DNA from: Paramagnetospirillum magnetotacticum MS-1 | GTDB taxonomy: Bacteria > Pseudomonadota > Alphaproteobacteria > Rhodospirillales > Magnetospirillaceae | Reading direction: 5' to 3' | DNA length: 64,000 nt | Assembly (NCBI RefSeq): GCF_000829825.1 | Contig: NZ_JXSL01000027.1 | Coordinates: 124,001-188,000, forward strand | Part shown: positions 16,091 through 19,052 of the stretch, piece after piece | How the letters are laid out: each line of letters begins with the position of its first letter | How positions within the stretch are numbered: the stretch's first letter is position 1 | The notes under the pieces: model-generated | What the model was told of the DNA's origin: nothing | What the model saw: only the letters and a program-made list of their open reading frames with translations | The model's database searches: none | Program-made: the position numbers and the translations under genes

Positions 16091-16148
16091 TTGACCACAA
16101 TTTTCTGATGGTCTAAGCCTGAGAATGAAGATGCGATGCGCTTGCATC
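16091..16148 (+). promoter_or_regulatory. Candidate feo promoter with Fur-like inverted repeat
   Basis: TTGACC (16091-16096), 17 bp, then TAAGCC (16114-16119) could be a promoter. Just downstream lies TGAGAATGAAGATGCG and an inverted repeat GATGC/GCATC (16130-16148) where a Fur repressor would block transcription. The match to any Fur consensus is partial, so this is a suggestion only. Confidence 0.3.
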
Positions 16149-16171: not shown

Positions 16172-16405
16172 ATGGATGTTTCGCTGCAGGACATGAAGCC
16201 CGGTGACTCGGCCCGCGTGGTGGGCTTCGCCAAGGGCGAGCGGGACTACCGCCAGCGGCTGCTGGCCATGGGGCTGACCCCCGGCGCTGAATTCAAGGTG
16301 ACCCGCGTGGCGCCCATGGGCGATCCGGTGGAGATCACCGTGCGCAACTTCACCCTGACGCTGCGCAAGGCCGAGGCGGCCATCCTGCGGGCCAAGAGAA
16401 CCTGA
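16172..16405 (+). CDS. feoA: Ferrous iron transport protein A
   Basis: FeoA is a small SH3-like cytoplasmic protein that associates with the FeoB iron permease. This copy of 77 residues has the family pattern SLQDMKPGDSARVVGF, RQRLLAMGLTPGAEF and DPVEITVRNFTLTLRKAEA. A longer reading from ATG 16136 would add 12 residues, but that start would be only ~10 nt from the inferred transcription start and lacks a ribosome site, while ATG 16172 has GGAG ahead. It is followed 2 bp later by feoB. Confidence 0.92.
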   Translation: MDVSLQDMKPGDSARVVGFAKGERDYRQRLLAMGLTPGAEFKVTRVAPMGDPVEITVRNFTLTLRKAEAAILRAKRT

Positions 16406-16407
16406 TC

Positions 16408-18678
16408 ATGGCCCATATCGTCGCCGTGGTCGGCAATCCCAATTGCGGCAAGACGACGCTGTTCAACGTGCTGACCGGTTCCACTCAGCAGGTGGGCAAC
16501 TGGCCGGGCGTCACCGTCGAGAAGAAGGTGGGAACCTATCTTCTGAGCGGCCAGGAATACGATCTTGTCGATCTGCCCGGCATCTACATGATCGGCGGAA
16601 TCTCCAAGGGCTCCGAGGACGAGCGGGTGTCGCGCGATTACATCCTGTCCGGTGAGCCCGAGGTGGTGGTCAATATCGTCGACGCCTACAACCTGGAACG
16701 TAACCTTTATCTCACCGCCCAATTGCTGGAAATGCGGGTTCCGCTGGTGGTGGCCGTCAACATGATGGATCTGGCGGAAAAGAGCGGCATCCATATTGAC
16801 GTGGAGGCCTTGTCTCGCGCCTTGGACTGTCCGGTCGTGCCCCTGATTGCCAGCCGGAAGAGGGGCGTGGACGACTTGAAGGCGGCCATCGCCGCCGCCT
16901 GCCGCGCCCGCCGTATTCCCATGGTCCAGCCCGCCCATGCAGAGGCCGTTGCCGCAGCGCGCGACGCTTTGCGCCCATGTCTGGCGGAGGCGGCCGCCGG
17001 TCGCAATGTGGATGCGGGTTGGGCGGCGTTGAAGCTGATCGAGGGCGACAGTTTCGCCGAGGCGCTGGCCGAAGGCCGCCTCGATACGGAGGTCGATTCG
17101 CATCGCGCCGAGATCGAGACCCGTTGCGGCGAGGAAGCCGACATCATCATCGCCGATGGCCGCTACACCTTCATCGGCAAGGTCATGGGCGGCTGCGTGC
17201 AGCAGACCCACAAAGTCTCCCTGGCGGCGACGCGGCGTATCGACAAGGTGGTGCTCAACCGCTTCCTCGGCGTGCCGGTCTTTTTGCTCGCCATGTATCT
17301 GATGTTTCTGTTCACCATGAAGGTGGGCGGCGCCTTCATCGACTTCTTTGGCCAGGCGGCCGAGGCCTTGGTCATGGATGGCAGCGCCCTGGCGCTGGGG
17401 CTGATGGGCGCGCCCAACTGGCTGGTGGCGGTGGTATCGGGCGGTATCGGCGGCGGCATCAAGACGGTGGCCACCTTCATTCCCATTATCGGCTCGCTGT
17501 TCCTGTTCCTGTCGTTTCTGGAGGATTAGGGCTATATGGCGCGGGCCGCCTTCGTCATGGACCGCGCCATGCGGGCCATCGGTCTGCCGGGTAAGTCCTT
17601 CGTGCCGCTGATCGTCGGTTTCGGGTGCAACGTGCCCGCCATCATGGCCACCCGCACCCTGGAAAGCCGCCGCGACCGGGTGCTGACCATCATGATGGCG
17701 CCGTTCATGTCTTGCGGGGCGCGTCTTCCGGTCTATGCCCTGTTCGCCGCCGCCTTCTTCGCCGAGAACGGCCAGAACGTGGTCTTTTCCCTGTATCTGC
17801 TGGGCATCGCTTTTGCCGTGGGCACCGGGCTGATTCTCAAGTCCACCCTGCTGCGGGGCGAGGCTTCGACCTTCGTGCTGGAATTGCCGCCCTACCATCT
17901 GCCAACTATGCGTACCGTGGTGCTGCAGACCTGGCAGCGCTTGAGTGAGTTCATCTTCCGCGCCGGGCAGTTCATCGTGCCTCTGGTGACGGTGCTGAGT
18001 GTCCTGAACACCCTTGGCACCGATTTCAGCATCGGGAAGGAGAACAGCAAGGATTCCGTTCTCGCCGCCGTCAGCCGGGCCATAACTCCGGTCTTTCACC
18101 CCATCGGCCTGTCCGATGAGAACTGGCCTGCGGCGGTTGGGCTGTTCACCGGGATTTTCGCCAAGGAGGCGGTGGTTGGCACCCTCAACGCGCTGTACTC
18201 CCAGGTGGACGCCGAGGATAAGTGTGGATGCGCCGAAGACGCTAAGCCCGGTATCGGCGATAAGCTCATGGCTGCGGCAGCGACCATTCCCGCCAAGTTC
18301 TCCGCGATGGTCGAGGCCGCCGATGAGGTGAAGGTCAAGGATGGCGTGTTCGGCGCCATGGTGGCCCGCTTCGACGGCACGGCAGGCGCCTTGGCCTATA
18401 TGGTGCTGATCCTGCTCTACACCCCTTGCGTGGCGTCGCTGGGCGCCATCCGTCAGGAAGCGGGGGGAGGATGGACCCTGTTCGCCGCCGCATGGACATC
18501 GCTGCTGGGCTATTCAGCCTCGGTGGCCTGTTATCAGGCCGCCACCTTTGCGCGCCATCCGGCCCAGTCGCTGGGCTGGCTGGCGGCCTGTGTCCTGGCT
18601 CCCCTGGGGGCTTCGGGAGTGATGTGGCTGGTGGCCCGTGACCGCCGTCTCTCCGCCGTTTCAGGAGCGTCCCCATGA
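16408..18678 (+). pseudogene. feoB: FeoB ferrous iron permease interrupted by one in-frame TAG
   Basis: FeoB imports Fe(II) through the inner membrane, using an N-terminal GTPase. Both parts are intact in the same frame. Part one (16408-17526) has G1 GNPNCGKTTLFN, G3 DLPGIYMI, G4 NMMD and the first membrane helices. Part two (17536-18678) has the second Gate half, GCNVPAIMATRTLES and CGARLPVY. They are separated only by the codon TAG at 17527-17529, read as FLED-stop-GYMARAAFVMDR. FeoB homologues have FLEDSGYMARAAFVMDR here, so a single TCG-to-TAG change explains it. No frameshift or deletion accompanies it, and the 3' part shows no decay. It is either a recent null mutation, a sequencing error, or a suppressed amber codon. 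The full length would be 756 residues. Confidence 0.88.
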
Positions 18679-18890
18679 CCCTGGTCGAAGTGAAGGCCTA
18701 TCTGATGGAGCGCCACCGTGCCGGGCTGGGCGAAATCGCCACCCATTTCGACACCTCGCCCGACACTGTCCGCCAGATGCTGGCGCAATGGATCGCCAAG
18801 GGCAAGGTCAGGCAGGTGGATAACGGCTCCTGCGCCGCCGGATGCCACTGCGCCATCCGCCATGATGAGATTTACGAGTGGGTGGGGTGA
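18675..18890 (+). CDS. feoC: FeoC-like winged-helix protein
   Basis: This 71-residue protein matches the FeoC family of small winged-helix proteins found with FeoAB. It has the helix-turn-helix stretch LGEIATHFDTSPDTVRQMLAQWIAKGKVRQV and a C-terminal cysteine cluster CAAGCHC that in FeoC proteins can bind an iron-sulfur cluster, possibly sensing oxygen or iron. Its ATG overlaps the feoB stop (ATGA), so its translation depends on ribosomes finishing the 3' half of feoB. It is a candidate FeoB-stabilising or regulatory partner. Confidence 0.85.
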   Translation: MTLVEVKAYLMERHRAGLGEIATHFDTSPDTVRQMLAQWIAKGKVRQVDNGSCAAGCHCAIRHDEIYEWVG

Positions 18891-18893
18891 ATG

Positions 18894-19025
18894 GGCCTCT
18901 AAAGCCCCCGATCCCCCAAACGGGAGGCACGGCCTCCCGAACCCTTCAGCATTTTATAAAAACTGGTGGTTCGGAAGGCTGGGCCTCCGAACGGGTCAGG
19001 GCGGTAGCCCTGCCGCGCGAGCGGA
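18894..19025. repeat. Multi-palindrome intergenic repeat, copy B
   Basis: This copy has the same hairpin order as the elements at 564-693 and 51316-51447: AAGCCCCCGATCCCCC, then CGGGAGGC/GCCTCCCG, an AT-rich linker, TTCGGAAGGC/GCCTCCGAA and GGGCGGTAGCCC, ending GCGCGAGCGGA. It starts 3 bp after the feoC stop and faces the 3' end of accC. The first hairpin is degraded on its left arm. Confidence 0.8.
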
Positions 19026-19052
19026 AAACAGTACTCCTGAAAGATCAGGAGT
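19024..19052 (-). terminator. Candidate terminator of aroQ-accB-accC
   Basis: A perfect 8-bp stem ACTCCTGA/TCAGGAGT (19033-19040 with 19045-19052) includes the accC stop codon. On the minus strand it is followed by ACTGTTTTCC, a short U-run. Placement over the stop is unusual but the geometry fits a weak intrinsic terminator, backed by repeat copy B just beyond. Confidence 0.55.

Follow-up and report, generated by a model that had tools for sequence, protein, structure and literature searches.

A probably recent in-frame stop in the general feoB of Paramagnetospirillum magnetotacticum MS-1 and a magnetosome-island FeoB1 that lacks the P-loop lysine

Does the feoB of P. magnetotacticum MS-1 still encode a ferrous iron transporter and, if it does not, which FeoB is left to this strain? 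The 64,000-nucleotide stretch analysed here (the window) contains, at positions 16408-18678, one feoB frame that is intact except for a single TAG. Starting at ATG 16408, the frame runs for 373 codons before reaching TAG at 17527-17529; in the same frame, ATG 17536 opens 380 further codons that end with TGA at 18676-18678. Pfam assigns FeoB_N and FeoB_Cyto to the first piece and Gate and FeoB_C to the second, with feoA encoded upstream and feoC downstream. The features of the locus are the following.

16172..16405, + strand: feoA (PF04023), from Pfam; the listed open reading frame begins at 16136
16408..17529, + strand: 5' part of feoB, 373 aa plus TAG, with the PF02421 G domain, the PF17910 cytosolic helical domain and the first membrane helices (predicted)
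17520..17524, + strand: GGAGG, 5' of the stop and 11 bases before ATG 17536, within Leu-Glu-Asp codons
17527..17529, + strand: in-frame TAG at the position of Ser374 in relatives, from the reading frame and alignment
17536..18678, + strand: 3' part of feoB, 380 aa if ATG 17536 is used, with GFGCNVP, Gate (PF07670) and FeoB_C (PF07664)
18675..18890, + strand: feoC (PF09012), from Pfam, its start overlapping the feoB stop

Frame analysis and domain content thus bear out what a preliminary description had read from the letters: one in-frame TAG splits feoB, both halves are intact and in the same frame, and feoC is still coupled to the 3' part, since its start at 18675 overlaps the feoB TGA. Of the hallmarks of a FeoB, the G1 motif GNPNxGKT is present as GNPNCGKTT in the 5' part, and Gate, FeoB_C and the GFGCNVP cysteine motif are present in the 3' part, while a single uninterrupted reading frame is missing. 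The start of feoA may be ATG 16172 rather than 16136, as similarity to strain AMB-1 begins only near 16172. Regarding other elements, neither an Rfam scan nor ARAGORN gave any match or tRNA in the 64-kb window, and a promoter scan around the operon returned no promoter-like site; terminator-like matches around the operon numbered four, versus 2.0 (sd 1.4) in shuffles.

The explanation that we favour, with a probability of roughly 80%, is that MS-1 recently lost its general feoB to a nonsense mutation at the strain level, leaving a null allele. Translation would stop at residue 373; the product would have the G domain and the first membrane helices and lack everything from GFGCNVP onward. The working 756-residue FeoB would then not be made, and ferrous uptake would rest on the magnetosome-island FeoAB1 and other iron permeases. 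One published statement counts against a null allele: a passage of a review (PMC7017999, citing Taoka 2009) has feoB expressed in MS-1, and it does not say which feoB. Our search of the open-licence PMC literature found no report of a feoB defect in MS-1.

In order to see how unusual this stop is, we aligned FeoB loci over the site. Among 110 loci, 99 carry Ser, 10 carry Thr and one, the gene in the window, carries a stop; as six genomes had entered by two routes, these loci amount to 104 distinct sequences, with 93 Ser, 10 Thr and one stop. All ten Thr-bearing proteins are relatives of the magnetosome-island type. The comparison with related genomes proposed in the preliminary description therefore gave a sense codon in 103 of 104 distinct sequences, and TCG in the four nearest distinct genomes, so that the disruption is absent from orthologues, as in a pseudogene. 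The serine codon had also been called conserved, and a 42-row alignment indeed has Ser374 in each of 41 rows, row one, the window protein with Ser inserted at the stop, being excluded from the count. In a class-wide sample of 385 genomes, 13 gave a strong FeoB match and the stop was found in MS-1 alone. Finally, no other full-length or near-full-length FeoB with a stop appeared among the matches listed for 55 genomes of the family; stops do occur there in two weak matches, which belong to other GTPases.

We then compared the region with that of one family genome (G039), which we take to be strain AMB-1. Its feoB is 91% identical to that of the window, and the operon and its upstream neighbours are the same, but AMB-1 has a sense codon where MS-1 has TAG. 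The interval between feoC and accC is about 14.5 kb longer in AMB-1 than in MS-1 (window 18884-19048 versus L168-L169). Of 47 AMB-1 reading frames set against the MS-1 region, 16, including feoB, were flagged and 15 of these were inspected, the sixteenth (a224) having been flagged on coverage alone and lying outside the inspected set. Verdicts were based on position, identity and third-codon GC, with annotation left aside. Among these 15 frames, feoB was the only one in which a stop interrupts a conserved coding stretch. We rejected the others as broken genes, judging them to be over-extended 5' ends, one 3' tail, or shadow frames. The opposite comparison, of 52 MS-1 frames with AMB-1, flagged eight, five of which were inspected. 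Because no comparable stop occurs in the inspected neighbour frames, the stop in feoB is not background noise.

How old is the stop? Taking AMB-1 as sister and three outgroups, we counted 74 synonymous and 34 nonsynonymous changes on the MS-1 feoB branch; the corresponding numbers for AMB-1 are 47 and 26 (Fisher p 0.63). The MS-1 changes split into 37 synonymous and 20 nonsynonymous before the stop and 37 and 14 after it, a difference that is not significant. We also estimated the neutral share of the MS-1 branch with a simple mixture model and a flat prior; the median was 4%, and at the 95% point the share stayed below 13%. According to the branch counts and the mixture estimate, MS-1 feoB shows neither a second lesion nor relaxed selection, which fits the idea, already raised in the preliminary description, of a very recent loss. 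Such a pattern would be as expected of a very young stop, but equally of a gene still in use, and selection on the frame downstream of the stop may persist. Hence, if the gene is dead, the stop is young, and the death was recent, perhaps in culture. Strain MSR-1 is described in PMC3953193 as ‘domesticated’ by passaging; by analogy, MS-1 may have undergone a comparable domestication.

One could argue that feoB works in two pieces: ribosomes would stop at TAG and re-initiate six bases later at ATG 17536, and the halves would assemble in the membrane into a fully or partly working transporter. The read-through protein was predicted to fold with a mean pLDDT of 86.2 and a pTM of 0.77. In this model one helix (337-374) ends at residue 374 and the next (376-390) begins at 376, which would place the break between two helices, before the GFGCNVP motif; the solved FeoB structures matched by sequence cover at most the first 267 residues of the read-through protein and leave its membrane part unmatched. 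The GGAGG lying 11 bases before ATG 17536, the domains retained in each half and the preserved overlap between the feoC start and the second half also speak for such an arrangement, and the second half could possibly be translated separately from that ATG. However, GGAGG follows from the codon content and is also present in the intact feoB of AMB-1, so it is no special adaptation, and we found no sign of an adapted split. Moreover, the site, invariant in the 41 rows mentioned above, lies within the gate region rather than in a long linker, and no other FeoB among the matches listed is split there. We consider a two-piece FeoB improbable.

The TAG could instead have arisen as an error in sequencing or assembly, or be carried by a minority of the sequenced culture. 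A single codon is affected, one MS-1 assembly is the basis of our analysis, and this is a draft merged from three assemblies made with different assemblers (PMC4384492). Against this stand the ~1000x Illumina coverage with error correction described in the same paper, which makes a base-call error unlikely, and the lack of a similar event among the inspected neighbour frames. We thus give little weight to the sequence error that the preliminary description had listed among its options. Its remaining option, an amber suppressor, which like readthrough would yield a share of full-length FeoB, suits a frame that is open on both sides of one stop but is hardly credible, as the proposed search for a suppressor found no CUA anticodon among 45 typed tRNA genes (48 are counted in PMC4384492, and the standard anticodons missing from our set, Ile-GAU, Ala-UGC and Arg-CCU, may cover the gap), a pattern scan for a CUA tRNA returned one tRNA-Arg(UCU) and one non-tRNA stretch, the gene for RF1 is present and above its cut-off, and the TAG is not common to relatives. 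Stop reassignment and conserved recoding were rejected on the same grounds, relatives having a sense codon at the site.

Returning to the null allele, what would it leave to the cell? The stop in feoB stands, but the ‘loss of Fe(II) uptake’ attached to it in the preliminary description is too strong, because a second, uninterrupted feoAB lies in the magnetosome island; an FTR1-family gene is also found in the genome. FeoB_C matches number two in MS-1, and the second belongs to this island locus.

MS-1 contig C19, locus L039, 14057-15451: OprB-family porin gene, directly before feoAB1 in the magnetosome island
MS-1 contig C19, locus L039, 15819-17930: FeoB1 gene, uninterrupted, preceded by a feoA

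Genes scoring above the NCBIfam cut-offs for MamX, MamY and MamZ are found no more than about 10 kb from the FeoB1 gene. In the part of PMC9549626 that deals with MSR-1, feoAB1 is called a magnetosome-specific Fe(II) transport system, and the feoAB on C19 corresponds to it. The G1 motif of MS-1 FeoB1 reads GNPNAGSTS, with the P-loop lysine missing. With the general feoB stopped and FeoB1 devoid of the G1 lysine, MS-1 therefore appears to be without any complete FeoB having a canonical P-loop.

We analysed this lysine across the family by collecting 62 FeoBs from 55 genomes by their FeoB_C match, a survey that a FeoB lacking such a match, or one lying in a gap, would escape. Twenty-one copies, in 17 genomes, are 75-100% identical to MS-1 FeoB1 and all of them lack the lysine, while four relatives at 55-57% identity keep it. 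With 17 sequences from the order, the family FeoBs made up a tree of 79 rows (78 different), 57 with lysine and 22 without; the 22 form one group (SH-aLRT 100) and imply one change, in what was a quick tree with long-branch warnings. Within this clade the lysine is replaced by Ser (17), Ala (3) or Val (2). General-type FeoB loci keep it in 97 of 97 cases, a count in which six genomes appear twice and 19 loci come from family genomes, most of them also in the tree. All 22 lysine-less proteins share the G3 motif (DVPG) and the N and D of G4, and pairwise dN/dS of the G domain ranges from 0.05 to 0.36 among the pairs listed, from 12 of the 22 rows, so that the lysine-less G domain is constrained and not decaying.

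Magnetosome genes accompany this clade in the same genome for 21 of its 22 copies; these 21 come from 17 genomes in which MamX was matched, and the match is above the curated cut-off in 11 of the 17, and nearly full length but below it in the other six (G002, G003, G011, G012, G030 and G031). Another family of the same order also has a lysine-less FeoB (G514, L244), at about 72% identity, together with a separate lysine-bearing copy; the best MamE match in that genome scores 692.5 bits, below the curated cut-off of 800. Two lysine-less copies per genome were seen in G042 (L206, L211), G037 (L202, L212), G038 (L203, L213) and G003 (L199, L033). We found no report of a P-loop change in a magnetosome FeoB in the open-licence PMC literature.

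Next, we considered which FeoBs accompany MamX. A MamX match was present in 22 of the 55 family genomes, above the cut-off in 12. MS-1 has the stopped feoB and a lysine-less copy. Eight of the 22 showed lysine-less FeoB only (G002, G003, G011, G012, G031, G034, G037 and G047), an assignment that is weaker for G011 (80% complete), G012 (89%) and G003 (7% contaminated), and in five of these eight (G002, G003, G011, G012 and G031) the MamX match is below the curated cut-off. Lysine-less FeoB occurs with an intact window-type FeoB in four genomes (G021, G039, G042 and G043) and with a third, lysine-bearing type in four more (G022, G030, G038 and G048). Regarding the remainder, the window type is the sole FeoB of G040, lysine-bearing relatives of the island type occur in G004, G008 and G049, and G005 gave a MamX match and no FeoB. 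The stretches examined in G034 and G047 contain the nagB-like and methyltransferase neighbours but no feoABC next to them.

As no lysine-bearing FeoB turned up in eight other genomes that have a MamX match, the general FeoB appears dispensable in the family, and these genomes, along with the neighbourhoods in G034 and G047, indicate that its absence in such hosts is not exceptional. Judged from the gene content of these genomes, MS-1 looks like an early stage of general FeoB loss; gain in other lineages would be an alternative.

How could FeoB1 import iron? FeoB nucleotide hydrolysis is given as essential for Fe(II) uptake in the relevant part of PMC10353542, and deletion of feoB1 in MSR-1 lowers iron uptake and magnetosome number according to a passage of PMC7017999. 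FeoB1 then functions either without the lysine or in a different manner. As a tentative view, which we hold at somewhat less than even odds, FeoB1 would be the only complete FeoB of MS-1, the lysine would have been lost once in the ancestor of the clade, and the protein would transport without canonical GTP hydrolysis, if it imports iron as the MSR-1 mutants suggest; it would then be the sole FeoB on which MS-1 and up to eight other family genomes depend. By itself the stop adds one fresh pseudogene of ordinary mechanism, but it sits in a reference magnetotactic strain in which iron uptake has been studied, and users of MS-1 should know of it. The larger point is what remains: a retained FeoB1 without a residue that the ordinary FeoBs examined keep, which makes MS-1 a natural and convenient strain for asking whether the magnetosome FeoB needs its GTPase.

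Compared with canonical FeoB, the read-through protein of the window scores above both cut-offs, with 799.8 versus 683 bits for NF007105 and 633.7 versus 315.65 bits for TIGR00437, and its gene sits with those for FeoA and FeoC, as in canonical feoABC operons. It differs from them by the TAG at residue 374, and neither half alone reaches either cut-off. The magnetosome-island FeoB1 is 31% identical to the window protein and, like it, keeps the FeoB domains, GFGCNVP, the DVPG of G3, and the N and D of G4.
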